Of a stretch of 64,000 nt of DNA, positions 3,052 to 51,447 are shown piece by piece. Made by a program: the position numbers and the translations under genes. The stretch lies in assembly GCA_035772405.1 (NCBI GenBank), contig JAYKKM010000337.1:1872501-1936500 (forward strand), in the 5' to 3' direction. Under the pieces are notes generated by a model that did not search any database, was not told where the DNA came from, and saw only the letters and a list, made by a program, of their open reading frames with translations. Source of the DNA: Chrysogorgia sp. JL179-B06 (lineage: Eukaryota > Cnidaria > Anthozoa > Scleralcyonacea > Chrysogorgiidae). The first letter of the stretch is position 1; each line of letters opens with the position of its first letter.

Positions 3052-3264
3052 TTAAGCAGTGCTATTAAGGACAGCCAACATGGCTAAAGTCAATGCTATT
3101 CCCAAAGCAGCCATTCCAAAATAGTCGCATCTCCGGGCTCTTTCGTTGTTCAACTTATCCCCTATGTCAGCCAGGCTATGACCAATCTCTACGACGTTAA
3201 TATGCGTTGAGACGTCGTCGCTTGTATCGCCTTGTCGATCTTCTTTCTTTAAAAGGCACATCAT
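3052..3264 (-). CDS. Small tail-anchored BH3-only-like protein (copy 1)
   Basis: This 70-residue ORF is likely a pro-apoptotic BH3-only protein that binds the groove of Bcl-2-family proteins at the mitochondrial outer membrane. The BH3 core is LADIGDKL at residues 31-38, with hydrophobic anchors I27, L31, I34 and L38 and the signature G35-D36. This is the same spacing as in the family (h1-xxx-h2-xx-h3-GD-x-h4). Residues 48-66 form a hydrophobic transmembrane helix rich in A, L, G and M, with only a short uncharged tail (NSTA). The start is the first of two tandem ATGs, and a TATA-like run (TATATAATA) lies just upstream on the minus strand. If that region is an intron end instead, the true N terminus may differ. 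It has the same architecture as the genes at 31942 and 51223, which makes chance unlikely. Function is inferred from motif and topology only. Confidence 0.72.
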   Translation of the reverse strand: MMCLLKKEDRQGDTSDDVSTHINVVEIGHSLADIGDKLNNERARRCDYFGMAALGIALTLAMLAVLNSTA

Positions 3265-4650
3265 TTCCCAGGTATTATATACTGTATAGTCTTTGGAGTC
3301 CGTATACCAACGTGTTTAGACGGGTATATATCCGCTGTACTATGTCAAGGACTCGAGAGAGCTGTCCGTATAGTCTCAACTCGCTCGTATATATGCTGTT
3401 GCGTGGTATTGACAATTCGAGAGCTATCGGCGAATCGGTCGGGAACCTAACTCTCTTCGGTTACAAGCGGTCTTGGTAATCCAACTCCTTGATTCCTGAA
3501 GAATTTTCACGAATTTCTTTCGGCGCGTTGGCGAGCCGTCTGGCTTCTGCTTCTGTTGTGGTAGTACCACTGCCCTATAGCTTGTCGAGGTCTTTGTTGT
3601 TAGAGAGATATTTATATAGTGTATACAGCGATATCTCATGGACAGCAGTCTCAGGCAGTGTTTTCAGGCAACTCTCGACGAATCAGCGAACGCATTCTCT
3701 GACGAATAATACAATACGACGGAAACCTATAAATAGAGAAGTCCTGAGAAAAGCAAATGTTTGATACAGGGACAATCTTAACAGCACGCGTTTAGAACGT
3801 GTCAAGGTAATAAACAATTTTTACACGAAGACACGAGAAAACGGAAACTACCAGTCGGTCTACTTTATCAATCAAACGCTCGCATGGTTTGAGGGAACGT
3901 GTTTGGGCATGCATTTCTAGTGTTGTGCAACACTTGTGGGGTGACATGACGGAGTGTTTTTCCAACAATAGTGCTTTTTAAGATTTTCCTGTGTTCAGGA
4001 TGAAACAATAACAAAACAAATACGAGACAATATTTATCCGTGAATATATAGGCTTTTGGTTTTATACTGGGGACATTAAGAGACCAAGACTCAAGACCTC
4101 ATTGTCTGCGATGATGCCGACTCGTTATGCTATTTGGATCATGTCATGCAACGACGGTTCGCCTTAAGCGAACGAGAGTTTCCGTGGTTAGGTACGGAGT
4201 TTGTGTTTATATCATTGAAAGGAATTAGGGATTACTGACGTATGGACGTTCTTGATCAAATAAGGTCTCTTTCTTTGAACTTCAATTTAATTTTGCATCC
4301 AAAACAAATGCTTCGTTATTTACCGGAGAATTTAAGTCGCCGTTCTATAGGCACGGAGAATATTTGAACGTTCGAGCAGACGACCTATAGTGAGCCGTCA
4401 AAAATCCCGCGTTCGTTAGGTTTTAATAACGTTGAAAACTGACTAATTTCAAGCCTCTGTGAGCCAGTAATCACATTCACTGTTCATTATAAATACTATG
4501 TTTATCTTTGGTTAATATTCTGAGACGAAGTTCAAGCTATTTATAATAATAACAAAATGCACAACGTCGTTAAATGTGTGTGTGTCAGTGAAATACAGGA
4601 ATGGATCTTATATACACATCGCGTGTACTACCGAAATTATACTGCCTATA
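3265..4650. other. Upstream region of BH3 gene 1, no other gene seen
   Basis: No repeat family is recognised here. Short ORFs on both strands (3207-3479, 3424-3639, 3489-3764) overlap one another and show no domain. The stretch 3480-3560 is relatively GC-rich and could hold the promoter or first exon of the minus-strand gene at 3052-3264, but no core promoter can be proved. Confidence 0.35.
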
Positions 4651-4795
4651 ATTTTACTCTGATGAAGGGCTCCGCTCGAAACGTCAGTATCTCGTCACAA
4701 AATTCTTGGCAGTTTACCACCTTTTCACTTTGCTATATATTCAAAATACTGTCTACGCAGCACTCTACTTTTTTACTACTATATATATATATACG
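4650..4795 (+). mobile_element. Penelope-like element end (family B) with hammerhead-like core
   Basis: CTGATGA at 4659-4665 and GAAACGTC at 4678-4685 bracket a short possible stem (GGGC/GCTC). This matches the CUGANGA...GAAAC core of hammerhead ribozymes known from Penelope-like retroelements. The downstream segment (TTCTTGGCAGTTTACCACC, then CTACGCAGCACTCTAC) recurs at 8607-8700 and 35728-35812. One extra base sits between CTGATGA and the stem, so cleavage activity is uncertain. Confidence 0.6.
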
Positions 4796-5202
4796 TATAT
4801 ACATATGCCAATATGGTGTTTGACGACATTTTGTGATAATAAGCAAGCGTATTATATATATTTTTGGCCAAATGTTTTTTTAAGTTTGCATGCAAAGTTT
4901 GGCGTCTAGCCTCGAGGTGTGATATTTTGAAATCCTAATAGTTTCGACTGTATTCGCCTGTCGTGACCATTTGCATCGTCGGGATCTCAGATATAAATGG
5001 CTAATCAATGGTAATTAGTTGCGTGAGCGAGTTGGTGTGCGGTTTGGGAAATGATGATTTTTTATGAGAACGGGAAATGAGCCTGGCAGAGCATTAATGC
5101 GGTGGCCTGTTTTTTCCGTTTGCGATGATAAGTATGGTATATATATATATAGTGCCTTCTGTGTAGGAAGTGTACATATATCAATAGAACCAGTACATCA
5201 TT

Positions 5203-5322
5203 GTGACCTTCGCTTTCCATCTGAGTCTCGGTAGCTCAATGGTTAGAGCATCTCACTGGCAATCAGAAGGTTACAGGTTCGATTCCTGTCCGGGACTCAG
5301 AAACATTTTCCGAGACTGAGGA
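5203..5322 (+). mobile_element. tRNA-derived SINE
   Basis: A tRNA-like head at 5228-5299 has a 7-bp acceptor stem (GTCTCGG/CCGGGAC), an A box (TAGCTCAATGGTTAGAG) and a B box (GGTTCGATTCC). The anticodon loop CTGGCAA would give GGC, with one mismatch in the anticodon stem. Flanks (CTCTCCATCTGAG before, ACTGAGGATATGAGCTTGA after) recur with the head at 45770-45945 and 56215-56325, and partly at 6985-7105. A dispersed SINE therefore fits better than a functional tRNA gene. Confidence 0.7.
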
Positions 5323-5746
5323 TATGAGCTTGATAATTCTCCTGTAGTTTGTTGACAACTTTGTTTCGAAGTCACGTTTCAATTATCGCGGCTATGTGGC
5401 CTTGGAAACAAACGAATGGCAATGTATATATGGAAACACTCGAACACAAGTGACTTTGACGCGTTTCACTGCAGTGTGTTCCTCGTTACATTTTGGTGTG
5501 TGTGCGGGGGTTACGCAAAGATAAAATCTCGCTGAGTATTTATCAAATGCTGTGCAAGTGTGTGGAATTTATAGCATTGTAGCGTGCAGATCAGGACATT
5601 TTCTCTTATGCCATCTGTATACGAAACGATGTGCTCTTGTTTTTGTCATCTTGAGGACGTGTCCAAGCCAAGGGCAACGACGTATTCTACATGTCAACAT
5701 TTAGCCGAACGAATCATGATCGCGAATTATGTCACGTATTACCAAT

Positions 5747-5779
5747 TACATTATATATATATATATATATATATATATC
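5747..5779. repeat. (TA)n microsatellite
   Basis: Uninterrupted alternating TA of roughly 30 bases. Confidence 0.9.
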
Positions 5780-5929
5780 TGCCATTATGACGATAGTGAG
5801 AACACTTCATAGCCGGGCTTTATAATGATTTCGAGATGTATGGATTGTTTTATTGACGTTGAATGCTTAATACAATGACGTATTAACAACTTTACAAGGT
5901 CAGTGGTGTTCTGCTGAAATAGGTATACG

Positions 5930-6325
5930 AGGTCAAAGCTTTTGAGAGAAGGCCTTTCGTCACAGAGTCTCGTTTCCATTTCACTGTCTGACGAAGGGCC
6001 TTCGCTCGAAGCGTTACACCTCCTCCACACATGTCTATGAGCTGGGAGACGCAGGTTCATATCCTGGGTCGGACCTCCACTCAGGGTCTTAAAAATAATT
6101 GAGGAGAAAGTACTGCCTTTGCAATAATATCAGCAAAGTAGGCCCTCGGAATCCCTATCAATTGGGCTTCTAGCCTGTTGGGGTATTCCGTTCACCTAAA
6201 AGAGTGATAAATCTAATAAACTAAACTAAACAACACTATTTCGGTAGTACACCAACATTGTATTTTTATTTGTGTTTTTCCACTGTCTACACAGTACAAC
6301 ACTTTTACATATTAATAACATCAAC
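5930..6325 (+). mobile_element. Penelope-like element end (family A), split by an inserted repeat
   Basis: A degraded hammerhead-like core starts at 5988 (CTGACGA) and ends GAAGCGTT (GAAA changed to GAAG). It is followed by the family-A sequence to about 6031. The tail of the same family (CTATTTCGG.AGTACACCAAC..., then CTACACAGTACAACAC) resumes at about 6236 and runs to 6320. Between them lies a 200-bp unrelated repeat. A reversed partial copy (5945-5970) precedes the core, giving a local inverted pair. Confidence 0.65.
6032..6232 (-). mobile_element. Dispersed repeat R1 inserted in the PLE end
   Basis: It shares with 24578-24765, 35054-35245 and 57490-57641 the segments TCACTCTTTTAGGTGAACGG, GGGCCTACGATTTAAGGTCG, GCAGCACTTTCTCCTCAATT and a GGTCCGACCCAGGA-type end, read on the minus strand. 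On the plus strand it ends in an A-rich tail (TCTAATAAACTAAAC), which suggests a retrotransposed 3' end. In one related copy (34984-35211, minus) the reading frame continues into a GRRKRGRPRTSYL-like segment reminiscent of retroelement C termini. Confidence 0.6.
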
Positions 6326-6381
6326 TTACGATCTTGCAGGTATATATATACATGGCCTTGGGGAATGTCAATTAATAATTC

Positions 6382-6592
6382 AGGGAGTTTGGATTTTTTG
6401 GCATCGATGGAGGATTGTTTATTTTTGCAACTGGACGCGCTGGTTTAATAAATGGAGCCTTGTACGGCGATTTAAAATCCCCGAGTAATTATCAACAATG
6501 TTGGAAAAATATAAACATATGTATAAAGGATTGCTGTCTGTATGGTTTGAAAAAGACACGGGAACTGGCTCGCAGGAATGTCGTCGGTTTAG
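6382..6592 (+). CDS. Candidate coding exon, function unknown
   Basis: An open frame follows a possible acceptor (AATTCAG) and ends at a strong donor (TTTAG|GTGAGT, GT at 6593). The peptide is of mixed composition, contains GFFGIDGGLFIFATGRAG and a cysteine set CWKNINICIKDCC, and lacks the low-complexity look of neighbouring random ORFs. No ATG is in frame near the 5' end, so it would be an internal exon. I do not recognise the family and no partner exon was found nearby. The polypyrimidine tract before the acceptor is poor, so this may be chance. Confidence 0.25.
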
Positions 6593-6769
6593 GTGAGTGG
6601 GTATTTTTTGTTTAATATTATCTATGTTGATTGTTGAACCATTGATGCCCTTTCAACCTTTTATGCCTCAGAAGTGATCAACATCTATCTTCTCCTAATA
6701 ATATCAATAGTTAACCATGCCATAGAGGTAATGAGAATAAAGGAAATGATCACGAAAGATAAACTGACA

Positions 6770-6883
6770 TTTAGTTAAGTTAGGTATAGTTGCAGCTTGA
6801 TGTTTGTAAAGTTGTAAATGTTTACAACTTTACAACTAAAGGTTTACAAACATCAAGCTGCAACTACCTAACTTAACTAACAA
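6770..6883. repeat. Near-perfect inverted repeat (hairpin)
   Basis: The arms GTTAAGTTAGGTATAGTTGC... (6774-6811) and the reverse complement at 6843-6880 pair over about 37 bases with one or two mismatches. An inner palindrome (GTTGTAAATGTTTACAAC) fills the loop. It looks like a small foldback element or the remnant of a MITE. Confidence 0.8.
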
Positions 6884-6984
6884 CATTTGACTGGAAATTG
6901 ACTGTCACAACACGACTTGTAGTCCAACAAGTATTTGTGATAACGGCAAGACTCGTCGCAGGTTTAAATACCGTATTTAACCTT

Positions 6985-7105
6985 GCTCTGCCATCTGAGT
7001 TCCAGTGGCTCAATGGTTAGATCGTCTGTCTAGCATGTCTAGCATTGTTACTAGCCTGCGAGCTATACGGGTTCGAGTCCTGTCTCGTGCTCAGAGTTTT
7101 TCTGA
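6985..7105 (+). mobile_element. Diverged tRNA-derived SINE
   Basis: It has the same GCTCTGCCATCTGAG start as the SINE at 5203, an A box (GTGGCTCAATGGTTAGA) and a B box (GGTTCGAGTCC). The anticodon arm carries an extra duplicated GTCTAGCATGTCTAGCAT, which destroys tRNA folding. It ends GTGCTCAGAGTTTTTCTGAG. Confidence 0.6.
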
Positions 7106-7164
7106 GTATTGATAACTTAACCATAGTTATGACTTAACACAGCTTGCATAGCAAAACCTTTACA

Positions 7165-7500
7165 ACTTTATATATATATATATTTTATATATTTATTTAT
7201 ATTTTATTTATTTTTTTGCCCATATTGAAGTATTACAATAGAAAAATTATTACATTGATTATGAAATTGATTGGGCTAGGGGCCAACTAGAAACCTATAA
7301 GGCTTTTTAAATAAGACCCCTAGTGTAAGTTATATATTTTAATTATTACATAGTCAGTTCGATAAAATGTGTATAGTTTAAAGGATAAAGATAATTATTT
7401 ATATTTGCAAAGTAAGAATAAGATAAAGAAGAAAAGATAAAGAAGAAAAGATAAATATAAACTGACATGTTTTTAAAACAACTTCTCCCAACTTTTGTAC
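7165..7500. other. AT-rich stretch with purine-rich short repeats
   Basis: A long TA/TTTATT-rich tract is followed near 7415-7455 by three near-copies of AAGATAAAGAAGAA. No gene seen. Confidence 0.5.
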
Positions 7501-7526
7501 TATAAGAAATGTTTGAAGACAAATAA

Positions 7527-7960
7527 TAATAATAATAATAAAACTTTATTTAATGAGGCTAACACATGACAGCAAAATGCTGATAAACTTGTGGCCCTCC
7601 TACAATTTCTAATTACAATTATAATAGAATGATAATTAATCTAACTATGATAAATATTAAAACTAAATATTAAAAATGCTATTTTACATATATAGGTTAG
7701 GTATTAAAAATTAGTGTTTCAAAGTTATCAATATGTTCATATTTAGTTAAAAAGTAAGAGCGTATTGCTTTATTAAAACTATTAAAAGACTCAGACTTCT
7801 TAAATTTAAACACATCTACCGGTTTGGTTCAATATGAACAAGGAGAATATATATGTTGATAATGGGTCTTAAAGGGTTAGGCAACACTGTCCATGAGTGA
7901 ACCATGATGAGCGGCCCCGAGCCGTTCAATTTAGACAATTTAGACAATTTAAAAATAGCA
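7527..7960 (-). mobile_element. Probable retroelement 3' end with (AAT)n tail
   Basis: Read on the minus strand, this AT-rich region ends ...GCCTCATTAAATAAAGTTTT followed by (ATT)n. That is an AATAAA-type signal with the microsatellite tail typical of non-LTR retrotransposon 3' ends elsewhere in this window. No intact coding is left. Confidence 0.4.
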
Positions 7961-8569
7961 TATTCAGACATCGAACTATACTCAATCGAAGTTTAATTAG
8001 CTCCGGTCGTTAATTCGCTCAGCTGTGGGCCTCTTGCTTGTCGTGGGGAACACAGAGTCTCATCGATTGTCAACTGGTGCAGACAGAAAATAATTCCACA
8101 CAATTGTACGGCTTCGCTAAACTTTTTTATAAGTCCTAATTCGACAACTATGGTATTGTACCCCCATATCTTTTTAACAGATCTTGCTTGATATGTCGCG
8201 TCGTGTGATTTCGATCGGGAAATTATTTCAAGGTATATTTTGGGATAATAGTAGACTTGGGATGTAATATGCTGGTGTTACAACCGAACTTTTCATTTCA
8301 AAAACCCAAGCATTATCATATATATCAAATCTTAGTTGAAACACGCTAATATTTGTACAAGTAAAACATTTTTTACTTAATAAATGACCAACAGCTGGCT
8401 AGAAGACAAAGTTTTTAGATTGGAGTTGTCCGGAAACATAATTATGTAGAACTAAAGAACATTAACCACAGGGTCCAGGGTTCAGTTTAAAAGAAGCAAT
8501 ATATTTATGATTTGTTATCAACACTGACTCAACAGCGAAATATCACATCCAAGGCTGCAATACACTACA

Positions 8570-8700
8570 CTACGCAATGTATATATTCCTCTATAATGGT
8601 CTTACTCTGATGAAGGGCTCCGCTCGAAACGTCAATATCTCGTCACTAAATTCTTGGCAGTTTACCACCTTTTCACTTTGCTATTATATATTCCTCTATA
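8570..8700 (+). mobile_element. Penelope-like element end (family B) with hammerhead-like core
   Basis: CTGATGA is at 8607-8613 and GAAACGTC at 8626-8633. The 80 bases that follow match the copy at 4650-4795 almost exactly. Upstream, ACTACACTACGCAATG resembles the family tail, as expected if two units were once tandem. Confidence 0.6.
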
Positions 8701-10705
8701 ATCTATATAACCTCAATTATATTAAAACCTTTCTATATGTTCACAATTATCCAAAAGCTATATGATTTGTTACAACACTCAACAGCGAAAGATTACCACA
8801 CTCAAATACAAGACTGAAAATGTGCGAAACCGTCACCTAATTGTCTGGAGCAATTTGAAAATCATTTCTAAGCGGTATTGCGAGATGAAAACTTTGGTAT
8901 CGTGCCTTGGTATCGTGTCAACACAAATGAAATGCCGATACTTTTCAGCTTTAATTTATTTAATTAGCAGTCCAGATTCATTTTATTCTATAAAGTAGAT
9001 GTTCTTTGTCGACTCCTCTCTGGAAAGTTTCGGAATTATGCGACGCTTGTTAATTATGAAATCCGTCTGTCGTCAATAAATTCAAAAGAAAAAAACCCAT
9101 AACATAACAGTGCTGGTTTTGACAGTTGCAACCGCTCGCAATTGAATTTATTTCCACTTCATCTTTTGAGCAATTAGTTTGTTCTTTTGTTTAATGTCAT
9201 GCCGGTCAAAATGACCGGCAAGGCGAGAGTTTGACCGGACAGCGCCTCAATAAGGCCCTTACTATACCTTAGCCTTTCTCTGTTTACAATTATCGAGAAG
9301 CATAATGATATATAGCTAAAGAAAGGTTACTAATCTAACAAAAACGCCAGATCATATACACCATTTATGGCCTGGGTATCTCCAAGGCCCCTCGCTTGGT
9401 TATCCGCACTGTGTCTCAACAGGGCTTCATTATTTTTTATTCGATTTAATGACCTTGTCGACACAAACGTGCTCTCGTAATAAATCATGTTCATCCAATT
9501 ATAGTACATGTACCACCACCAACGTTTCAATTTTAAACTCGTATTCTCCCACGAACAATCGTTCTAAGTTTAAAGCTATTTAACGTCACGATTTATGTAT
9601 GAGACTTGAACATCTCTGGACCACACGTACTTCAAGTTCTTCTAGCTGAGTTAATCTCATGATATATAGCATTGATAATTCCAAAACTTGATGGCGTGAA
9701 CTGGTTCAAAAATCCCGGCGATCAATTTAAATTATAGCAATAATGTGAGTTTGAAGTCATGACAGTCGAGCATAACAAAACCACATTACAATGAATGTCT
9801 ACTATAAGACTCGTTTTAGACGAAATTTGCCATGTTTTTCAAGCAAAACAAAGCACTTTTTGGGACGCCAGTTTCTTCGCAAGAAAACGAGAAAGATTTA
9901 AACAAAGATCAACACAGTCTACTTCGACGCTCGGTCGTGGCTTAGGCTGTTTTATTAAGCGATAAAATCATTTCAAATGTCTTTTAACTATATCCACGGT
10001 GATACATGCTTGCGTATGTTTACCGTAAAAAATACTCGCGTATTTTTGCTAATGTTTTCTTGAAAACATAAGCTAAAATAAGATTCGCCATTAGGCTATG
10101 TGCCAAATCTTGCAGAGTGAAAATAAACCTTAGAAATTGGTCGAAACACATTTCCTGTCACCTTGTCAACTTGACAATGGCCTAAGATATTGCTTTGACA
10201 TCAGGCTGATTATTGAGGCTACTTGATATAGAAATAACCGACCATCTACAGACTGTAGACTTTTTACGAGCGCAATGTGTTATCTGTGGCGAAATTTGGG
10301 AATGTTTTAGACTATGAAACCTCTAGGCTCTAGCCTAGGCAGAATGAAGCGTGTGAAAGTTCTTCTTCCTGGCTAAAACGGAGACAAAGGCGATCAGATG
10401 AGATAAAGGTCGCCGTTCTGTCGCTATCTTGGACTAAGAAACATTTACTGAGGATATGAGCTTGTCTCTGTATCTTAATCTGTCTTCTCCAAGCTCTCAT
10501 ATACACTAAAGCAATATATATATATATTGATGTCTAGAATGGACTATAACGAAGTATAAATATATATTTTTATATATATTCAGTGGAAACGTTGTAGCCA
10601 TTAGTCACCTGAAGATTATGTTAAGCAGGAAACACTGAATGACAAGCTGTATATGTATTAGATCATTTCAAATATATTATATCAAGCAGGCTCTATACAA
10701 CCTTG
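8701..10705. other. No gene recognised
   Basis: AT-rich unique-looking sequence. A short palindrome GCCGGTCAAAATGACCGGC is at 9201-9219. A SINE tail fragment (AAACATTTACTGAGGATATGAGC) lies at about 10440-10465, and short TA runs at 10516 and 10560. Confidence 0.4.
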
Positions 10706-10709
10706 TATT

Positions 10710-11154
10710 GGGACCGCTCATTATTTATGGTCAGTGTGGCGGACGAAGAGAAATAGATTTGGGCTTGAAAAAACAATTTTACCCAACCAAATTAAGATCA
10801 GAAATTTAACCGACCCAATTCCCAATAAAGGCCAATTCCCAGCATATCGTCGATACAAGTTTTAATACTGTAACTGTCAGATTATTAGCTCCCTATACAG
10901 AGCAGGAATCCAAGGAAAACAAAGAGAGGAATACGACAAAAGCCAATGATGACTAAGGAGAACTGGAGATCAGATAACATAATTTTAAATGATGAACTCT
11001 TAATTTTTTTATGTAAATAGTCATGAAAATCTTGCTATCCAACCCTTCAGAGAAGTCATTATTTTTTACCCAACCATTTAGGACTTAGAATTTTCAGTTA
11101 CCCAACCATTTTCTCTTCGTCCCCCACCCCGGCCATAAATAATGATTGGTCCCT
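10710..11154 (+). mobile_element. MITE with ~23 bp terminal inverted repeats (copy 1)
   Basis: The left end GGGACCGCTCATTATTTATGG and the right end CCATAAATAATGATTGGTCCC are near-perfect inverted repeats. The interior (CCCAACCAAATTAAGATC..., GTATACAGAGCAGGAATCC-like segment, AACCCTTCAGAGAAG) recurs inverted at 12625-13103. It is non-coding and non-autonomous, of unknown superfamily. It abuts the TCTA array. Confidence 0.75.
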
Positions 11155-11161
11155 TACCGAG

Positions 11162-11886
<725 letters not shown>

Positions 11887-13103: not shown

Positions 13104-13445
13104 TACCTTGACAATATGAAGAGGCCATTACACTGGTGAATGAGTTGTGAAAGATCTTATCATTAATTCTCAGTCATGGGTCTATGATATGCGTTTTGAC
13201 ATTCGTGGGATTAGATTATGTTATTTGACCTTGATGTAGGCTTAGCTGCATATGAACTTAATGTGCGAACTTAGTGTTAATTAGCCAAAGGCAAAGGAAA
13301 GATTGTAGTCAATTTTAACAGATTCCTTTTAACCTATCAGATTTGGGAAATCTCTTAGAGGTTATTATCTAGTTGAAGTTTAATTGTGTGGCAGTTGACG
13401 ACTAGATGTATTGTCTAAACCAACAGTCATTTTTATTTTACGTTG

Positions 13446-20672: not shown

Positions 20673-20696
20673 GAGAATCCTTTGAAATGTCTTTCA

Positions 20697-31160: not shown

Positions 31161-31941
31161 TTTCTGGGGGAGATAATGCGTGTTGAATCAGTGATTTGAG
31201 AGAAACAATGTCATTTTCATTGAAACGGTGTTTGGTAATTGTATTATTGTGCATGCACGGGCTTGTCCATTGTATTTTCCGTTTTAATTATCGGTTTATC
31301 TACTATAAATATGCGGTGTAAAGTTGACAGATCCTTGAAAATATTTGACACTATGGATTACAGATTAGTCCATTGTTTTTTCAAAGCGATTACTCCATGC
31401 TGTGGGCAGAATTTCTTCCATGGCTTTTATCAGGCTAGAAGGATTTTTGAATAACAAATTGTGTTTGGACAGATGGTATCAGGAGACAGCATGTCTACAA
31501 GTGGTTGAACTTATTTTCGCGAGAAGCTTTAAATTACGATTGTTCTTCCGATGAGCGAGGTTTTAAGCGATATTAGATTTGTAATTAGAGGCGGAGCTCT
31601 AGGAGTGATTAGGTGATTGTCCTTTCAGCGTGTAGGCGCCACGGGAGACATGATTTGAAAGCTGATAAAATCTGTTTGCGTTGCTACATAGTCGGTTGCT
31701 AAACACTCGATTACAGTGTGTTGTGTGTGGGTTGTGTATTGGCATTAAAAGTTCAACTTGTCTTGTTTTAGTTGACTTGCTAAAGAACACGGATTCGCAG
31801 TGTTTGTGTAAAGAGAGATCTTGATTTATTGTGGAAATACCTAATTTGGAGTTGAGTAACACCGAAGCATATACGCGTATATATATGGTGGTTTGTCATA
31901 CAACAAACAGCGTTATACTGACTCAAAGTCACTGTACGGAA

Positions 31942-32169
31942 ATGGAGGTAAATGATCACGAAGACGCCGTGGCGAACTACTACCAGGAGATTGGCAGAGG
32001 ACTTGCAAACCTTGGAGATGTTTTGAACGAGCGCAGGGAAGAAGAAAATCTTTTTGATTACGAAGAAACAATGAGACTATCGAGTTTTGCTTCACTTGGA
32101 CTCGCCACAGGACTTGTATTGTTCGTCACGTTTCAATTTCTTCACAGGAGATACATACGTAGCCAGTGA
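31942..32169 (+). CDS. Small tail-anchored BH3-only-like protein (copy 2)
   Basis: A 75-residue protein, likely a BH3-only regulator of Bcl-2-family proteins at the outer mitochondrial or ER membrane. The BH3 core is LANLGDVL at residues 21-28, with anchors I17, L21, L24 and L28 and G25-D26. An acidic/basic linker (NERREEENLFDYEE) follows, then a helix of about 20 hydrophobic residues (46-67) and a basic tail HRRYIRSQ, the arrangement expected of mitochondrial tail anchors. The frame is open upstream to 31831, but only through a non-ATG codon and an ATG at 31885. The ATG at 31942 has the better context (GGAAATGG) and gives the same length as the two paralogues. A pyrimidine-rich acceptor (GTCTTGTTTTAG) near 31770 suggests a spliced 5' UTR. 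AT-rich 3' sequence with AATAATAA lies near 32400. Confidence 0.75.
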   Translation: MEVNDHEDAVANYYQEIGRGLANLGDVLNERREEENLFDYEETMRLSSFASLGLATGLVLFVTFQFLHRRYIRSQ

Positions 32170-42500: not shown

Positions 42501-42582
42501 ATTTATTTCGGTAATACACCACCTTTTGGAGTATCCGATTTAATAAGTAGAAAAATACTTGCGTGTCTCTGTGCTGTGATTA

Positions 42583-44136
42583 ATGTTACTATATGGGCCT
42601 ATGTTAACACATGTGATCAACATGTCAGCCTCCTTCCCATCGCTGAAGCGTTTTCCTCAATTAAAATTTGATAAAGTGTCTGAACTTTTCATTTTCTCTC
42701 AACTTCGATCTCTTAAGAGTGGGAAAGCTGTGGGTTTGGATAATATCTCGCCTCGTCTCTTTAAAGATGCTGCGGACATCATCACTAATCCATTAACTCA
42801 GATTGTCAACGCATCTTTGAGTCAGGCCACGCTACCAGCGGACTGGAAAGCAGCGAGAGTAATACCCTTGTACAAGGCCGGCAAGGCAAATCAAGTAGGT
42901 AACTACCGCCCCATTTCCATCTTACCTGTGATCTCCAAGCTGATCGAGAGAGCGGTTCAAGTACAGCTCGTCAAGCACTTAAGTGAGCATAATATTTTGA
43001 GCCCTTTTCAGTGTGGATTTAGAAAGGCACACTCCACTGAAACTGCTGCTATCTCACTAACAGATACAATCAAGCGTAATATTGATCAAGGAATGTTAAC
43101 CGGAGCTGTTTTTATCGATCTGAGTAAAGCGTTCGATACGGTTGATCATATTCTTCTCCTACAAAAACTACGCTACTATGGTATTGAAAATTTAGAACTT
43201 GAGTGGTTCGAAGATTATCTGTCAAACCGGAAGCAGGTCGTTGGCTACCAAAATGTTATGTCTGATTTTCAGTCAGTCACATCTGGCGTACCGCAGGGTT
43301 CTATTCTTGGACCTTTGCTGTTCATATTACTAGTAAACGATTTGCCCTCTACGGTAGTTCACTGTAATTTGTTAATGTATGCTGACGACACGGTTCTTTA
43401 CTACTCAGCTAAGGATGTTAACGTCATTGAGAAAAAAATGAATGAGGATCTTGGTTTAATTGGAAACTGGCTTAGAAAAAACTCCTTGTTTATTAACAAA
43501 GAAAAAACTGAATGCTTACTGTTTGGAACTCCAGGAAAATTATCGAATATTGAAAGCTTTCACGTTAGTATAAATGATTATGTTATCAAGCGTGTGTCGA
43601 AATTTAAGTATCTCGGTATATATCTTGACGAATGTCTTAGTTGGAAAGATCACATAAAGTCTATTGTGTCGAAGGCTGGTAAAAGGATAGGGATGTTACG
43701 ACGATTGAGATACAATTTAACCACTCACAGTGCAAATGTTGTATACACCTCGTTTATTCGTCCGGTTTTGGAATATGGTGATACCGTGTGGACTTGTTGT
43801 GGGAAAGGAAATGCTCAAGAGTTAGAAAGATTACAAAATCGTGCTGCGAGGACTGTAACCAAATGTAGCAATAGCGATTCAGCTCTGTCCAATCTAAAGT
43901 GGGCTAATCTCGAATGTAGACGCGAACGTCATGTTTTTAAACTTGTTAACAAGTCTTTGAGAGGCCAGTGTCCTCAGTTCTTAAAAAATTATTTTACTTT
44001 TAATAAAGACATTGTGCGGCGAGTAACTAGGCAGAGTAACTTGTTACACTTGCCAAAAGTCAGAACAGAAACTGCAAAGCGTTCTTTTTATTATTATGGA
44101 TGCATTGTTTATAATAAACTTAGTTCTTCCAATTAG
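42583..44136 (+). CDS. Non-LTR retrotransposon reverse transcriptase (5'-truncated LINE)
   Basis: A 517-codon uninterrupted frame encodes the reverse transcriptase of a CR1/L2/jockey-group LINE, which copies its own RNA at a nicked chromosomal target. Visible motifs in order: GKAVGLDNISP (47-57), NYRPIS (108-113), the motif A aspartate in VFIDLSKAFDTVDH (176-189), GVPQGSILGPLLF (235-247), the catalytic YADD (266-269), KYLG in the thumb region, and LEYGDTVW with LQNRAARTVT toward the C terminus. The upstream endonuclease and ORF1 are missing and the frame starts within the palm, so the copy is 5' truncated and the ATG is only the first in frame. The C terminus stops early (YNKLSSSN) where LPxxIR would be expected. 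Absence of internal stops indicates a fairly recent insertion. It cannot move alone. Confidence 0.9.
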   Translation: MLLYGPMLTHVINMSASFPSLKRFPQLKFDKVSELFIFSQLRSLKSGKAVGLDNISPRLFKDAADIITNPLTQIVNASLSQATLPADWKAARVIPLYKAGKANQVGNYRPISILPVISKLIERAVQVQLVKHLSEHNILSPFQCGFRKAHSTETAAISLTDTIKRNIDQGMLTGAVFIDLSKAFDTVDHILLLQKLRYYGIENLELEWFEDYLSNRKQVVGYQNVMSDFQSVTSGVPQGSILGPLLFILLVNDLPSTVVHCNLLMYADDTVLYYSAKDVNVIEKKMNEDLGLIGNWLRKNSLFINKEKTECLLFGTPGKLSNIESFHVSINDYVIKRVSKFKYLGIYLDECLSWKDHIKSIVSKAGKRIGMLRRLRYNLTTHSANVVYTSFIRPVLEYGDTVWTCCGKGNAQELERLQNRAARTVTKCSNSDSALSNLKWANLECRRERHVFKLVNKSLRGQCPQFLKNYFTFNKDIVRRVTRQSNLLHLPKVRTETAKRSFYYYGCIVYNKLSSSN

Positions 44137-44297
44137 GACAATTATAGTGGAACTTTTAACGTTTAGTTTTTTAACTTGTTAAATAGCTTAGTAGTGTATA
44201 TGTATATACTTTTAAATTTTAGGGCTCCCATTGATAACAGTAATTTTTATTACTGATGGGGCTACCCTATGGAAATAAAAGATTTCATTCATTCACA
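44137..44297 (+). mobile_element. 3' UTR and terminus of the LINE at 42583
   Basis: Contains GGGCTCCCATTGATAACAG, GATGGGGCTACCCTATGGAA and an AATAAA signal (44274-44279). It ends in ATTCATTCATTCA, the short tandem tail common in CR1/L2-like LINEs. Confidence 0.75.
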
Positions 44298-44552
44298 TTA
44301 CGTTATACGAAAAACAAAAACAAGAAGAAAAACAAAGTATCAGGAAATAAAGTATCAGAAAAACAAAGTATCCAATTGTCATTGAAACTTGCTTGATTAA
44401 TGGCATGTTCCTATCTAAGAATGACGTCATTTCTACTGGAAAAATACGTAAGGATATTTTAGCATACGTTCCATATTTCACTTAGCCAGTGAATCAAATA
44501 TTAAGTTTGTCTCATTTAAAAGAACTCTTAAAACAATGAGGAATAACAATAT

Positions 44553-44886
44553 ACAGCTTTTCCATATTTCACTTACTTCTTGAGATATTTAGACTAAGGT
44601 GATATTCAAATGAGATAATCTATGATGTAGCAAGTTGTACACAACATTGGAAAATCCTGTATATCTAAAAGATTATTGAACGAAATCACTTGAAGCTTGT
44701 CTTTAATGTTTTGTTTCGTGAGCTGTAGCAATTACAAAGTTTTGAGTGATTTCTTTTAATAATATTGGAAAGATATACATGATTTTCTAATGTTGTGTAC
44801 AACTTGCTATACGTCATAGATAAGCTAATTTAAATATCACATAAGTCTAAATATTTCAAGAGCTGAGTGAAATATGGAAGAGCTGT
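44553..44886. mobile_element. Long foldback element
   Basis: The left arm (CAGCTTTTCCATATTTCACTT, TATTTAGACTAAGGTGATATT, AGCAAGTTGTACACAACATT) is inverted at 44740-44886 (AATGTTGTGTACAACTTGCT, AAGTCTAAATATTTCAAG, GTGAAATATGGAAGAGCTG). The arms are about 145 bases with about 10-15% mismatches. No ORF. Confidence 0.8.
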
Positions 44887-44962
44887 AGAAGAAAGCTGCT
44901 AAGTTCTCAAAAGAACTGGATATAATATGGAAAAGCTAGAGAAATAAGAGAACTTCAATGTG

Positions 44963-45411
44963 TGTCTTATTTGGAAGAACTTCTAAAATGATAAAGTAAC
45001 TTCTTTTGAAGATTTTCGTTTCTTTGCTTTCTTTTTGAGATATATCAGTTTGTTTGATATGTAAATGTCTGGAATTTCGTCACACATGCATAATGACTTA
45101 TTGGAGAAATGTGTGTATCTCTTTCATTCTCGAACGAAATCCTTTAAAATCGAGAAGTTTGGTGTTGTGGGAGAAACGCACACACGTGTTATTCACACTT
45201 TAGTGTTTTTATTTGATGAACGCAAAGATATATAACATTCTCTGATAACTCATTACGCATGTGTGACGTAAATTCCGGACATTTGCGTATCAAACAAACT
45301 GATATATCTCAAAAAGAAAGCGAAGAAACGAAAATCTTCAAAAGAAGTTACTTTATCATTTTAAAGGTTCTTCCAAATAAGACAATAAAAAATGTTGAGG
45401 TTTGGGGCACT
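44963..45411. mobile_element. Foldback MITE, AGTGCCC family (copy 2)
   Basis: Nearly identical to 16159-16591, including the core AATCGAGAAGTTTGGTGTTG and GTTATTCACACTTTAGTG. The right end is complete (CAATAAAAAATGTTGAGG, TTTGGGGCACT), but the outermost left AGTGCCC part is missing. Confidence 0.8.
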
Positions 45412-45769
45412 TAAGGACTCACGTAGGACGCATCGTACGAAACGTTGACCATGAATATACGTAAGTACTCTTACTCAAGTATTTTTGACACATTGAAGTT
45501 CTCGTGCTAGTAAAGATGCCAAAAGCTCAAGCTCTAACGCTTTACTCAATTTATTAAAAACGCTTTACTCAAGCTCTACTCAATTTATACTCTGTATTAT
45601 TACATTGTTTTCAAGTTGAAATAAAGCAATTGTGAACTTTGCTCATAGCCATATTTCATCCCATAAATGTGGAAGTTTTTTGTGTTCCTCAATACACATT
45701 GCCCAATAAACAGAGCTGAGGATAGGTGCAGCACACTAATATACTTTAGGTGATACGTGCAGGACGATC

Positions 45770-45945
45770 GTCAAGCTCATATCCTCAGAAAAATGATTCT
45801 GAGTCCCGTACAGGAATCGAACCTGTAACCTTCTGAGCTACCGAGACTCAGATGGAGAGCGAAGGTTACAATGATGTACTGGTTCGATTGATATAGTTAC
45901 AGGTTCGATTCCTGTACGGGACTCAGAATCATTTTTCTGAGGATG
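45770..45945. mobile_element. Two tRNA-derived SINE copies in tail-to-tail palindrome
   Basis: The minus-strand copy (45770-45870) retains TCTCCATCTGAGTCTCGGTAG but has lost the anticodon arm (GCTC joined to AGAAGGTTACAGG). The plus-strand piece (45888-45945) starts inside the B-box arm (GTTACAGGTTCGATTCCTGT) and runs through CTCAGAATCATTTTTCTGAGGA. The shared ~50 bases are identical and inverted. Confidence 0.75.
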
Positions 45946-46272
45946 ACGATCGTCCACGTATATCGTCTGTCTACTCCGAGCTCTCCCACGTTCACTACAA
46001 CATTGTGTATATTAACGCACTAATACTTTAATTAAATAATCAGAGAAGAAGAATGAGACAGATCGATTGTTTGTCAACGCCTGCCTCTGCGGTCAATTGC
46101 CATCACGCTAGCGAGATCAATTAAACTATAATGATTTCCGGGATTACGATTTTATCGTCTATCTATCTCTCGTCATTGTTTCATGAATCTGAACACTTCC
46201 TGATTACCATCAAAACTGCAGGGTCGTTTCATGAGCGACGCGTCGTATGATATCCTGGAATAAAATGGTTAG

Positions 46273-46453
46273 AGACCTCTTTCATAATGGCGGCCAGTTT
46301 AAATATTCTTGTACATGCATGCAAATTAGCCTTTCTGGCCTCGTTACAAAGCGAAGATTCTTTGGAATTACAGACACACGAACGAGGTCAGAAAGGCTAA
46401 TTTAAATGAATATAAAAGAATATTTAATTTGGGTGCCATTATGAAAGAGGTCT
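46273..46453. mobile_element. Hairpin MITE, 20 bp terminal repeats
   Basis: AGACCTCTTTCATAATGGCG (46273-46292) is inverted at 46435-46453. The inner arms TAGCCTTTCTGGCCTCGTT and AACGAGGTCAGAAAGGCTA also pair, so the whole 181 bp can fold on itself. Confidence 0.8.
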
Positions 46454-46867
46454 AGAGGGTTAGTCATTGGTTTATTCTTTTAATCAATCAATCACAAAAT
46501 GAGTTTTTCGACCCATTTTTCGTTACGGTTGGCATCTTGATATCACACCATGTTTTCTGTAAGCTTCTATTATGTTCTTTCTGACTTTTCTGTGTGACGC
46601 GTGATAGCTTGCATGCGAAGGTGCGCCTGCGGTAACACTATTTTGGATTTCTTAATTGGATTTCGTTCTCAAAGAAGTTGCTTTGCCAAATAGGAAACAT
46701 CAATTTAGCGGAATATTCTTTTATACAGCGGAACATTCTATTTTATTCTATATATATATTCTATTATATTCTATATATATATATATATTTGCACACGAAC
46801 AGTGTAATGGGCAGGACTTGGCGACGACGATCTTCCTGCATAAAAGCTCGGGGATATACAGCGTTTA

Positions 46868-46955
46868 AGTAACTTTGAGAATGTATTAATATTGCAAGTG
46901 CATTGAGATGACTGTATAATGCTCCCAAAACGTTATTATTATTATTATTATTAAT
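46868..46955 (+). mobile_element. LINE 3' end with (ATT)n tail
   Basis: AGTAACTTTGAGAATGTATTA, TGCATTGAGATGACTGTATA and ATGCTCCCAAAACG, then ATT repeats. It is a diverged member of the family at 39587-39695. Confidence 0.6.
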
Positions 46956-47454
46956 ATTCGTTTCGAACTGAGAGTGAAATGTTTAATATACATCCAATAT
47001 GGTCGTTTAATATTTGTCGAAGTAATCAAAACAACATAAATTTTTAATGTATATCATTTAGTTAAAATTATTTAATCGGTATATAAAATATCAGATATAA
47101 AAAATGATAGAATTAACTATAATTACGATTCAAGGTATTTTGACTGACTGGCCCATAGATATGTATATACGGGTAGAATATTGTATAATATATATATGTG
47201 TAAACAAGTATAGCTATAAAATACCTTTTATCTGAATGCATTCGATAATTTATTTATCACCAATCACATATACTTAAAACACAAGAACGTTCATTTCCAA
47301 TGTGTATAAGCAACATAATTCATAGAATATGGAAGTATTTTCAGACGAAATCACGATGGAAGTTGCTCTATAGACATTTTTAGAAAAATGTTTGTTGAAC
47401 TGCTGTCACAGAACAAGTCGTCACATTTAATTTTTGTTTTTAAAAGAAAAATTA

Positions 47455-47840
47455 AGTTACTCAGATGAAGCTTGTCCAAGGGACTGAGGGACTTCTTAAG
47501 AAGAGGTTGTGATGTAATCGACCTAAGTTTTGGGAGTGAGTTCCAAAGTTTCGGTGCAGCAGCTGAAAACGACCTGTCCTCCAGAGTCGGTAGTGTTCTC
47601 TGTTTGATCTCAGGCCGTAACTATAGGTTTAGATTTAACAAGGGCTAGGTCTGAAATATACTTAGGAGCTAGTTGCAATAAAAGAGGCGTAATATATGGC
47701 AACATCTGTGCGCCTGTTCAACCAATCTTGCCGCAGAGTTTTGTACTCGTTGGAGCTTGGATATAGTTGAGAATTGTGAAGGCCATACAGCAAGCTGTTG
47801 TCATGCAATTGTCTAAACGGCTTGTACAAGGGCATGTATG
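47455..47840 (-). pseudogene. LINE reverse-transcriptase C-terminal remnant
   Basis: On the minus strand, broken frames give LQAPTSTKLCGKIG..., ITPLLLQLAPKYISDLALVK, then after a shift DRSFSAAAPKLWNSLPKLRS and ITSQPLLKKSLSPLDK. This order (LQ...AAR, L.P.YI.DL, RSFS.AAPKLWNSLP) is that of CR1/L2-group C termini. Stops and frameshifts show decay. Confidence 0.65.
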
Positions 47841-47937
47841 TATTAGTAGAGTTTTTCGTGCCACTAGTGGCGTTTATTGTGTTTTGTTTTTTTCACATCA
47901 TAATGCAGTTATTTGATGTTTTAGATTGACAAGAGTT

Positions 47938-49003
47938 GAAAATGGGCTAACATTTGGCCGATATCGGTATAAAAACACAACATGGGTACAATACACAATT
48001 TATTGGCTATATATGGTATTAAATGAAAGATACATTCATGTAGATTATGATAAAACATGAATTGTATACCAGTTAGCAGCTAGTTAATAATTTAATAGCT
48101 TACATAATAAGTACATATATGATCAGGAACCGATGGGAAAACAGTGATATATCAACCAAAACTAGTTCTAATGATACGAAACTTGGTAAAACATCTAACC
48201 AAAGACAGATCTGTGTTCTATAGTAAAATCAGGGGTTATGGTGAGATATTTAAAAAATCAAATTTTCTAAAATTCACAAATAGGTCGTGGTTCGGTACTT
48301 ACCGTGGAGATAAGTTTATGATTTTACTACAGAACACAGATCTGTCTTTGGTTAGATGTTTCACCAAGTTTGGTATCATTAGAACTAGTTTTGGTTGATA
48401 TATCACTGTTTTCCCATCGGTACCTGATCATATGTACTCATTATGTAAGCTATTAAATGATTAAAGTGCCACTACGATGAAAATAGCATAGCATAGAATA
48501 GTATTTCAGGGTCGAAAGTGATCATCGAAAAATTGTATTTTGAAGTAAGTATTTTAAGCTCTGAAATCACTATTATTTAGGCCACCATTACTAAAAACGT
48601 GTTCCAAGTGAGCCCGCAATTTCAAAAGGTAATTTGTTTATGACGTCAGATTCTCAATGCTACGCCTGAATTTCAGTCGAGGTTACTTGTTTTCTTGTTT
48701 TCTTCGAGAAGTAGATGAAATGTTTAGCCTTTCAGACGAAGAATTTGAAAAAACGACCTTGATTTACTTGAAGAATTAGCCATGTGGAGTCTTCGCGTTG
48801 AGAATCTGACGTCGATAGGTAAAAATTTGATCGTAGTGGCACTTTAACTAGCTGCTAACTGGTATACACTCATCAACTGGTATCAATTCATGTTTTATCA
48901 TAATCTACATGAATGAGCTTTCATTTAATACCATATATAGCCAATAAATTGTGTATTGTACCATTGTTTTTATACATATCGGCCAAATTGTAGCCCATTT
49001 TCA
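47938..49003. mobile_element. Large foldback element interrupted by a MITE
   Basis: The left arm 47938-48231 pairs with the right arm 48319-48460 plus 48848-49003. Examples are AAAGACAGATCTGTGTTCTA against its complement, GATATATCAACCAAAACTAG, TTGGCTATATATGGTATTAA and AAATGGGCTA. The arms are about 295 bases and nearly identical. The right arm is split by the 379-bp element at 48465-48843. No transposase is encoded. Confidence 0.85.
48465..48843. mobile_element. MITE with AGTGCC termini and TTAA target duplication
   Basis: It starts AGTGCCACTACGATGAAAAT and ends AATTTGATCGTAGTGGCACT, flanked by TTAA at 48461-48464 and 48844-48847. The intact opposite arm of the host palindrome shows the empty site with a single TTAA, which proves the boundaries. 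TTAA duplication is a hallmark of piggyBac-type transposition, though other families can share it. The interior has no transposase. Confidence 0.85.
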
Positions 49004-49486
49004 CGTATTTGCCCCTCTAAAAATTGGTGAACAACCTTGCGTGACCTAAACTGGTTGCTTCGTTTCGAAACCCTGATTGGCATCACGTTTTCGACTTCAA
49101 ATTCAATACGAAAGCATATCGTCGACTTGAACATGACGTTTGTAATTGGTTTCAGTTAACTTCTTGAAAAGCCAGGCCACAGTTAATTTGGCGCCACGGA
49201 GCGCTGCTGTGAGCTCTCTGACGTCAATCTGACGTCAACTCTGGTTTGTTATTGCGGCGTTTTCATTTTCTCCCGCTGAATAACTCTTACGCACCGCAGA
49301 TGTTCGTCACCTTTGTGAAATATCTCTGCTATAACCAACCGAACCCAGGGAAACTTGCTTAAAATCGGAAAGCTAGCTTCACTATAATTATAGCGTATTG
49401 TAAGGCGGAGCTTGAGAATCAATTTTGGAAGCTATTCTTTTTGTGTTTTATTTTTGGCGTTAAATTGTGTCATTTCCTTGACGTCA
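48642..49486. promoter_or_regulatory. Cluster of perfect CRE palindromes
   Basis: TGACGTCA occurs at 48642-48649 (inside the MITE), 49219-49226, 49230-49237 and 49479-49486, with a TTTGGCGCCA E2F-like site near 49189. The pair at 49219/49230 is spaced 11 bp start to start, about one helical turn. It lies 1.7-2.6 kb upstream of the BH3 gene at 51223. CREB/ATF binding is inferred from consensus. Confidence 0.35.
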
Positions 49487-49489
49487 CAG

Positions 49490-50585
49490 GTGATATTTAT
49501 AAGTACTTGCTGCACTGGTTATTCACTCGAAACTTTTATGTGAATAGTCAAAGTGGCATTTGGAGTCGCTCCGAAGAAACACTACACCGAAGTATATTTT
49601 CTCATACTTGGTTCACTTCTTTGTGGACATACAATACATTGCTACCTCTATATCATTGTCAAACCAAGCTTGCAAGAAGGTAAGAATATGGATTACATGA
49701 AATCTTCTTCAACATTTAGCTACGTGCCATGTCGTATTTAGGCAGACGCCATTCTCAGTTGCAATATGGACGTGGTGCACAATGACATAAGTGATTATTA
49801 CGCACCTATTTTCGGTCATAAAATTTAGGATTGTCGAAAGCTCGAAGCTTTTCCGTGAATTTCCATGACTTGTCGGTATTTTGCGACCAGTTTGCTTTCC
49901 CCTAGTTCTTGCTTTCACTGTAGTTATTTTAAAGCCATTGGTAAACATACGATATTAAAATGCAAAATCGTATTTTTATGTAACAGCTTCGAGGTGAAAT
50001 TTAAGCTTTGGTTTTAATTTGTTCCGACAATTATCGCCTTTAGTTATCCAAAATGTTTATCAATCTGGAGTGTTGTGATGCTATACATGTTGCGCGAATG
50101 TTGCGGGGGAAACGGGTGGCCTATAATAAGGGGAGAAACAGGGTTAGAGCAACGTTGTTCATGTATTAATGACATAGCAAACAATGGGCTTAAATCCGCA
50201 TCTATATATCACCTTAATGACAATGCTCTACAGCAATACATTTTTAAAGTTATTTATACTACTACATATATAACTAATACATGTATAACTAATACAGCTA
50301 GAATAACTACACTAAAACTATTAATTTGTAAAAACGAAAGTCTTATAAGTCCTGACTGACTGACATATCATGACGCAGTTTAATATGTTGTACGAATGTA
50401 CGGTATAGTTATAATATATGTTGATATCATACTAGTAAATATAGCTACATATGATTTAATGATACGTGACCATGACAGACTATACGGCTTACTGTGATTG
50501 GTTAAGATCAATTTGAAGAAAAACATATTCGCTTGATTGAACTTCATTCTATTGCTGTCACGTTTTGGTTTGTCGACCGCAGTAA
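49490..50585. other. No gene recognised
   Basis: The overlapping short ORFs 49441-49683, 49553-49741 and 50075-50359 show no domain. A short ATACATGTATAACTAATAC duplication lies near 50268-50300. Confidence 0.35.
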
Positions 50586-50825
50586 GGCTAAAATAGATCA
50601 CTCAAAAGGACCTTCCATTTTCAAGTACTAGTCTTAGCGGAATCCTAATCCTAACCTTGATCCTAACCTTAATCCTAACCTTGATCCTAACCTTAATCCT
50701 AACCCTAATCCTAACCCTAACCTTGATCCTAACCTTAAACCTAACCCTAACCGCTAACCTTAATCTAATCAAAAATAAAGACCAAACAAAACCAGAAAGG
50801 TCCTTTTGAGTGATCCGTTTTAGCC
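50586..50825. mobile_element. Element with 29 bp TIRs and a telomere-like core
   Basis: The left repeat at 50586-50614 and the right repeat at 50797-50825 match inverted at 27 of 29 positions (GATCACTCAAAAGGACCTT is shared). Between them, 50640-50760 is a degenerate array of CCTAAC/CCTAAT/CCTTGAT units close to the metazoan telomere repeat. No ORF. A MITE that carries or has captured telomeric sequence is the likely explanation. Confidence 0.75.
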
Positions 50826-51222
50826 ATATCCAATAAGCGAGCTATTTAAGTATCTGTGAAGTGCAAAGTATTCAGCGGCTTTACAATACAGTGGTGTTAC
50901 TCAGCAACAGAACTTAACTCATCAGTGGCGTTTTCAGATTGAGGACGGCGTAAAATTATTTATTCTCTTAATCTCTTTACAGCTATTAACTAAGTTTCAA
51001 AGCAATCTATTTAGCTCGGTCGTTATTTTAACATCTTCTCTTTTTTTGTTGACAGACTTCTGTGGTCTGTGGAACACGAACTTGAATACTTTCCATTGGA
51101 AACGGTTAGGCCAAGCCTTGCACTGCCAGTTCAAAAAAGAGTTGTCCGTGTGCTCAACTCCATCCAACGAGAGGAAACTGAAACACAAACTTATATTTCC
51201 AGTACATCTTTAATTTACACCC

Positions 51223-51447
51223 ATGGATGCTCCGTCAATTCAAGCTTTAAACCACGATGAAGCCGTGGTTTATGTTGCCAAAACACTTGCACAGCTCGGC
51301 GACGAACTCGATAAGCACGACGCATATCGTTATCGGCGCTATGGCAACCACGTCGTCAGAGCCAACTTGATATGTGTCAGTTTCACCATTGTGTTAGCAG
51401 TCTCTGCTTATTGTTTCAATGGAAGAGTGGCCAGGATCCCGTCATAG
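51223..51447 (+). CDS. Small tail-anchored BH3-only-like protein (copy 3)
   Basis: A 74-residue protein, likely a BH3-only apoptosis regulator. The BH3 core is LAQLGDEL at residues 22-29, with anchors V18, L22, L25 and L29 and G26-D27. The linker is rich in Tyr and Arg (AYRYRRYG). A hydrophobic helix spans about 47-65, followed by a short basic tail (NGRVARIPS), consistent with a mitochondrial tail anchor. The ATG has a strong context (CCCATGG). A good splice acceptor (TTTTTTTGTTGACAG) ends near 51055, and the 5' leader contains an out-of-frame ORF (51069-51260) that overlaps the start, so upstream-ORF control is possible. Length and layout match copies 1 and 2; sequence outside the BH3 core is much less conserved. 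Confidence 0.75.
   Translation: MDAPSIQALNHDEAVVYVAKTLAQLGDELDKHDAYRYRRYGNHVVRANLICVSFTIVLAVSAYCFNGRVARIPS

Follow-up and report, generated by a model that had tools for sequence, protein, structure and literature searches.

Candidate BH3-only genes in a dispersed cluster that also holds a Bcl-2 gene of pro-survival type

Introduction

Can three very short open reading frames (ORFs), lying far apart on one stretch of DNA, be BH3-only genes of the Bcl-2 family? The stretch, here called the window, is 64,000 nucleotides (nt) long and lies at C337:1872501-1936500 in an assembly of 781 Mb and 522 contigs, which is the genome searched throughout. A contig position equals 1872500 plus the window coordinate, with negative coordinates lying to the left of the window. 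BH3-only genes start mitochondrial cell death and, being short and diverged, are easily missed outside vertebrates and a small number of model animals. As set out below, this is very probably what the three ORFs are. They are read here, with a probability of about 0.87 and on the basis of sequence analysis, as members of a dispersed cluster, which comprises at least eight such ORFs (ten motifs over 158 kb) and, towards one end, a Bcl-2 gene of pro-survival type. BH3-only genes as such are already known; the cluster, the ORFs with a double BH3 and the head-to-head pairs with Bcl-2 genes appear to be new.

Results and discussion

Among the 165 window ORFs considered (ATG start, at least 40 amino acids), a BH3 motif is present in three, and in each of these it is followed by a helix, scored as the best 19-residue hydropathy C-terminal to the motif. 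The three genes are arranged as follows.

3052..3264, minus strand: BH3-only-like gene 1 (P0001), 70 amino acids, single open frame
3151..3186, minus strand: BH3 core of gene 1, IGHSLADIGDKL, residues 27-38
3067..3123, minus strand: C-terminal transmembrane helix of gene 1, residues 48-66, hydropathy 2.13
31942..32169, plus strand: BH3-only-like gene 2 (P0002), 75 amino acids
31990..32025, plus strand: BH3 core of gene 2, IGRGLANLGDVL, residues 17-28
32086..32142, plus strand: C-terminal transmembrane helix of gene 2, residues 49-67, hydropathy 1.88
51223..51447, plus strand: BH3-only-like gene 3 (P0003), 74 amino acids
51274..51309, plus strand: BH3 core of gene 3, VAKTLAQLGDEL, residues 18-29
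51361..51417, plus strand: C-terminal transmembrane helix of gene 3, residues 47-65, hydropathy 2.01

These positions and sizes, like the BH3 motif with its hydrophobic anchors and Gly-Asp pair and the C-terminal helix in each ORF, agree with the preliminary description of this DNA. For gene 2, an alternative in-frame ATG at 31885, 19 codons upstream, would give 94 amino acids. The tail of ORF 1 is short and uncharged, and those of ORFs 2 and 3 are basic (HRRYIRSQ, net +3, and NGRVARIPS, respectively), with basic residues also preceding the helix of gene 3.

The same description held that chance would hardly produce this two-part layout three times, and shuffling bears this out. In 2500 dinucleotide shuffles of the window, its motif followed by a helix occurs 0.0012 times on average, against three in the real sequence. 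A broader BH3 version, in which the G before the Asp and I/L at hydrophobic position h3 are optional, gives a mean of 0.0088, and a version with a small residue after h1 gives 0.0032. One motif-plus-helix ORF was found in 3, 22 and 8 of the 2500 shuffles for the initial, broad and small-residue versions, respectively, and two were never found. The initial motif was chosen post hoc, after the ORFs had been seen, but the broad version gives an equal answer.

The wider cluster

With 130 kb added on each side, 324 kb were scanned for BH3 ORFs, 260 kb of these outside the window. The proposed local, diverged cluster of minimal BH3-only genes is supported and is larger than had been claimed: at least eight BH3 ORFs with ten BH3 motifs are spread over 158 kb, five on the plus and three on the minus strand. 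The members outside the window (g coordinates from stop to stop) and one possible further member are listed below.

-65041 to -64712, minus strand: g1, BH3 IGRALANIGDNF
-32633 to -32247, plus strand: g2, BH3 IAARLANIGDDL
-26537 to -26172, plus strand: g3, two BH3 motifs, LARMLTEVGDHL and VSGKLALMGDRL
-20943 to -20608, plus strand: g4, BH3 VGSTLASIGDRL
92358 to 93050, minus strand: g8, two BH3 motifs, IGTRLAKVGDDL and YAAQLAALGDYL
100323-100574: possible ninth member, uncounted, 83 amino acids, LALGQELALAGDEL, 11.8 bits

A matrix built from the three window ORFs alone gives four hits of at least 16 bits in the 260 kb outside the window: g1, g2, g4 and one of the two g8 motifs, the first. Shuffles average 0.025 such hits, and none of the 200 has more than one. 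At 12 bits or more, nine real hits stand against a shuffle mean of 0.56; the range from 12 to 16 bits adds one g3 motif, the possible ninth member and three false hits. When all ten motifs are used, the hits of at least 14 bits in the 324 kb are these ten only (60 shuffles average 0.03), their own scores being inflated because they trained the matrix. The top score on the reversed sequence is 12.1, and the leftmost 65 kb and rightmost 100 kb are free of hits of at least 14 bits. In leave-one-out scans (non-ACGT letters substituted, 200 shuffles), the left-out motif scores 10.1-36.6. The lowest values are 10.1, for the second g8 motif, and 14.2, for the first one in g3, so that the double-BH3 claim leans on position and pattern over score.

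The motifs were also sought with a BH3 regular expression that places no constraint on the residues following h1 and h2; rows were shown when the hydrophobic stretch after the motif exceeded 1.3 or the frame exceeded 100 amino acids. Among the ten printed rows outside the three initial ORFs, Ala follows h2 in six and G/A/S follows h1 in eight; three of the ten were later discarded as chance, and in the seven kept the counts are 6/7 and 7/7. The ORFs also find each other in tblastn searches over 264 kb: the first four non-self matches of ORF 1 are g2, g4, ORF 2 and ORF 3, the first two of ORF 2 are g2 and ORF 1, and the first of ORF 3 is g4, with BH3-to-BH3 matches at E 0.015-0.18. In a protein search of the whole genome, ORFs 1, 2 and 3 each match only their own gene at a meaningful score; ORF 3 has one further weak match, with an internal stop (E 2.16).

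Several candidates were rejected. The regular-expression rows at 49363-49683, -46069 to -45557 and -91280 to -90933 (three of 13 printed) were dropped as chance; in two of them the Asp is not preceded by G, in none does Ala follow h2, and none reaches 9 bits in an unfiltered matrix scan. An ORF at 164408-164914 in the right flank, with its overlapping frames, scores 10.4-13.0 bits, and up to 15.5 bits with a twelve-motif matrix; it was rejected as repetitive and as having GE instead of GD. This ORF (L025:408-914) consists of repeated WEVGRTLGKLGEHLGSW-like units and is a look-alike for the BH3 matrix without the Asp.

Comparison with known proteins

Next, profiles were compared with the PDB. 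Up to E 10, 19 of the 20 matches of the three-ORF profile are BH3 peptides or BH3-bearing proteins, and with a trimmed profile 22 of 27 are Bcl-2-related. With the ten-motif profile, this holds for 58 of the 60 among the matches listed (61 matched), four of the 58 being designed Bcl-xL or Mcl-1 binders, while with permuted columns none of the ten PDB hits is Bcl-2-related. Taken as profile evidence, which is partly circular since the sequences were selected by a BH3 pattern, these tests show the motif to be specifically BH3 and not a general helix. As single queries, P0001 has two PDB matches up to E 10, one of them the Bik BH3 peptide (E 0.47), and P0003 reaches the Bid BH3 peptide (E 1.2), ranked under three unrelated chains. 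Run against viral contigs, the three-ORF profile gave 59 pattern matches, none of which was confirmed.

A check with family models had also been proposed, and its outcome is mixed. Among the 12 proteins scanned with Pfam, weak BID or EGL-1 matches occur in five (BID in P0003, g1, g3, g8 and P0124; EGL-1 in g1 only, E 0.24), spanning E 0.0065-0.27, but none lies above the cut-off. Furthermore, g2 and g3 weakly match unrelated Pfam families. P0001, P0002, g4, the possible ninth member and both ORFs located next to Bcl-2 genes elsewhere (see below) have no Pfam match, and neither Bcl-2 (PF00452) nor BH4 is matched in any of the eight cluster ORFs.

A relative of ORF 3 is present in public data. 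This protein, P0124, encoded on a 1046-base contig, is the sole relative from the three-ORF profile search (31 candidates, 5.8 billion proteins); it has 75 amino acids (E 4.8e-10) and is identical to ORF 3 in 51 of 76 columns (67%), from first to last residue. Length changes between the two are whole codons, and start and frame are kept. The BH3 of P0124 is VAKKLAQIGDDV, the membrane helix is kept, and the tail is nearly the same as in ORF 3. An AlphaFold2 model of ORF 3 with P0124 places helices at 11-37 (BH3) and 42-70 (anchor), with a mean pLDDT (predicted local distance difference test) of 65 and a pTM (predicted template modelling score) of 0.33, and is weakly consistent with the layout of a BH3 helix and an anchor.

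As to its surroundings, interstitial telomere-like CCTAAC repeats lie at 50642-50763, ~0.5 kb 5' of ORF 3. Inverted repeats were found at 51774-52002 (arms of 111 nt, 85%, 7-nt spacer) and 48117-48433 (115 nt, 97%, 87-nt spacer); one of them lies ~0.3 kb 3' of the ORF.

Bcl-2 genes and head-to-head pairs

The Pfam Bcl-2 model finds at least ten exons above the cut-off in the genome. Two of these, L030 and L031, look Bax/Bak-like and have their own clear BH3 (20.4 and 21.3 bits); that of L037 is weaker, at 9.1 bits. A further exon lies in the cluster itself, and a cluster-derived matrix, run on the 3.3-kb loci of all ten exons, finds two ORFs that stand out beyond the Bcl-2 frames.

C337:1809935-1810231: Bcl-2 exon L032, in the cluster at ~-62.6 kb, near one end
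L029:333-683, minus strand: BH3 ORF, KEVGQILRKLGDNLERIG, 13.9 bits
L036:511-945, minus strand: BH3 ORF, TVIGQILRSVGDKLENYR, 14.4 bits

The L032 protein has a BH4 above the Pfam cut-off and no BH3 hit of at least 7 bits, which makes it pro-survival in type. It is divergent to g1, with ~2.0 kb from ATG to ATG. The ORFs at L029 and L036 lie on other contigs and were absent from the training set of the matrix; both sit upstream of their Bcl-2 gene on the opposite strand, at ATG-to-ATG distances of ~0.5 kb for L036 and ~0.8 kb for L029, where the second Met of the BH3 frame is taken as its start (the first Met would give 0.7 kb). In shuffled Bcl-2 loci, hits of at least 13.9 bits, the lower of the two scores, average 0.0075, with one hit in 15 of 2000 shuffles and two in none. 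Neither ORF has a membrane helix, and at the other seven Bcl-2 loci no such ORF reaches that score within 1.5 kb on either side. For the two Bcl-2 proteins that were compared, the nearest PDB chain by sequence is in both cases Hydra Bcl-2-like 4, which hints at a cnidarian host without proving it; according to the excerpted text of PMC8998228, 6WH0 is from Hydra and 6YLD from Trichoplax.

One tentative reading, to which we give somewhat less than even odds, is that the head-to-head Bcl-2/BH3-only pairs (three of ten exons) are co-regulated modules. A local nursery of fast-evolving BH3-only genes, at least eight in number and two with a double BH3, would then have grown from one such pair. If so, killer and protector genes would be physically coupled in the genome. 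Should the pairing prove to be conserved, the birthplace of BH3-only genes may lie there, beside or out of a Bcl-2 gene.

Alternative explanations

Several observations weigh against the assignment as BH3-only genes. A designed coiled coil ranks first in both three-row PDB profile searches. P0002 alone finds no BH3 chain in the PDB and no homologue, the protein search giving one candidate and none at E ≤10. No single BID or EGL-1 match reaches the Pfam cut-off, and one protein search with P0002 and one with the three-ORF profile revealed no orthologue of either ORF 1 or ORF 2. Within the window alone, the two best non-self tblastn matches of ORF 3 are not BH3 ORFs, ORF 1 coming third (E 0.19). 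Finally, there is no clear membrane helix in three of the eight cluster ORFs or in both ORFs beside other Bcl-2 genes. Tail anchoring thus stands for the three ORFs for which it was proposed and does not hold as a general trait, the other two cluster ORFs having marginal helices (1.38 and 1.54).

Among the alternatives, the ORFs might not be genes in their own right but exons with a BH3 that belong to larger spliced genes or to a single long one. Donor-like GTRAG sequences lie within 300 nt downstream in four of the eight cluster ORFs and inside one, the three missing tail helices could be on another exon, and a 3' splice-like sequence 5' of ORF 3 is seen by eye, though not listed by the pattern scan. 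However, both strands are used, and an in-frame stop precedes the first ATG in all three window ORFs, only 9 nt upstream in ORF 3, whose start and end residues are the same in P0124. Moreover, cnidarian BH3-only genes are reported to be without introns in the part of PMC8998228 consulted. On balance, an origin as exons is unlikely.

Extreme divergence, missing tail helices and the many repeats of the window would also suit a collection of relics, i.e. decaying BH3-only copies among which working genes are few or absent. Against such decay, all eight frames are open, each with ATG, BH3 and stop in one frame and the ATG before the BH3, and P0124 preserves ORF 3, the two differing in length without any shift of frame. 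We regard a cluster made up of relics as quite unlikely.

It might further be asked whether these are helical proteins with a membrane anchor and a different function, in which L-x-x-x-G-D arose by convergence. The BH3 is a short linear motif, binding is here predicted only, and unrelated helical families match weakly; nevertheless, the four-point hydrophobic spacing and the Gly-Asp pair recur in all ten kept motifs, and physical linkage to Bcl-2 genes is seen at three places, making convergence very unlikely. Chance, i.e. random ORFs of a repeat-rich region that happen to combine the motif with a hydrophobic stretch, draws on a short motif chosen after looking, on the false matrix hits of the tandem-repeat ORF and on the three dropped rows, and is hardly credible given the count of three against 0.0012-0.0088 in shuffles, the further BH3 ORFs outside the window and beside other Bcl-2 genes, and the conserved relative of ORF 3.

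Proposed mechanism

For the BH3-only genes preferred here, the BH3 anatomy and the established pathway suggest a function as death ligands. The protein would be produced on demand, and the tail helix of ORFs 1-3 would insert in the outer mitochondrial membrane. The BH3 segment would form an amphipathic helix and, through its invariant Asp and four hydrophobic residues, dock in the groove of a pro-survival Bcl-2 protein. This docking would free or activate Bax/Bak-like effectors encoded in the same genome, which would then permeabilise the membrane and lead to cell death. Like vertebrate Bad, anchorless members could work from the cytosol, and two-motif proteins could bridge or engage two Bcl-2 molecules. 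A BH3 core that is kept while the rest has diverged among paralogues would fit separate stress inputs to one switch.

Other features of the window

The remaining features of the window are repeats and other elements.

42583-44136, plus strand: reverse transcriptase ORF, open, 517 amino acids, Pfam RVT_1 E 6e-38
58186-64000: satellite array, 184-base unit, ~32 copies, 95% matches, running to the window end
5225-5298, plus strand: transfer RNA gene, tRNA-Ala (GGC)
11164-11884: degenerate TATC tetranucleotide array, giving a spurious 242-amino-acid ORF

The reverse transcriptase is read as a LINE-type (long interspersed nuclear element) element; its relatives are up to 93% identical among the matches listed, with at least 7973 of 8000 scored candidates at E ≤0.001. 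In bacterial and archaeal genome contigs it gave 29 pattern matches, and none was confirmed. The 111-nt stretch surrounding the tRNA-Ala gene recurs 51 kb away at 56196-56306 (79% identity) and is possibly a tRNA-derived short element.

Relation to known systems

Among vertebrate proteins, the BH3 segments of Bik, Bak and Bid are the best PDB matches of the ten-motif profile (E 6.7e-5, 6.1e-4 and 0.0063, respectively). The similarity lies only in this segment, and no orthology is claimed at the gene level; Bid and Bak are folded proteins, and these ORFs have no Pfam Bcl-2 match. EGL-1 of Caenorhabditis elegans is also BH3-only, and its likeness, given the E-value of 0.24 for g1 below the Pfam cut-off, is in the motif only. 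In Hydra, BH3-only proteins reportedly go back to a paper by Lasi et al. from 2010. According to the excerpted text of PMC10192318, Hydra has HyBH3-only 1-4 and, like here, these occur in an animal with many multidomain Bcl-2 genes. They are likened by description only, and the excerpts say nothing of clustering in the genome, of a double BH3 or of pairs with Bcl-2 genes. Several BH3-like motifs in one protein are reported for nesprin-2 (PMC12134178, in excerpt). Among the titles and opening lines of abstracts listed for open-licence PubMed Central papers (at most 20 per search), no BH3-only cluster, BH3-only protein with a double BH3 or head-to-head Bcl-2/BH3-only pair was found, which is weak evidence of novelty.

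For corals, a 2014 review states, in the part consulted, that in Acropora BH3-only members had yet to be identified (PMC4083563). In a 2016 coral study, as excerpted, characterisation of the BH3-only repertoire is called of particular importance and likely challenging (PMC4715348), and the relations among BH3-only genes of different animals are described as unsettled in the excerpt of PMC8998228. Neither clustering nor a pairing with Bcl-2 genes comes up in these excerpts.

Conclusions

The find is better than first thought, since it now comprises a cluster, ORFs with two motifs and linkage to Bcl-2 genes. This linkage suggests a search rule, i.e. to look for small BH3 ORFs beside Bcl-2 genes, through which both the BH3-only repertoire of corals and the relationships among BH3-only genes would become testable in the genomes of other animals. 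Provided that the host is a coral or a similar animal, the death step of bleaching and tissue loss is one in which these genes may be candidates.

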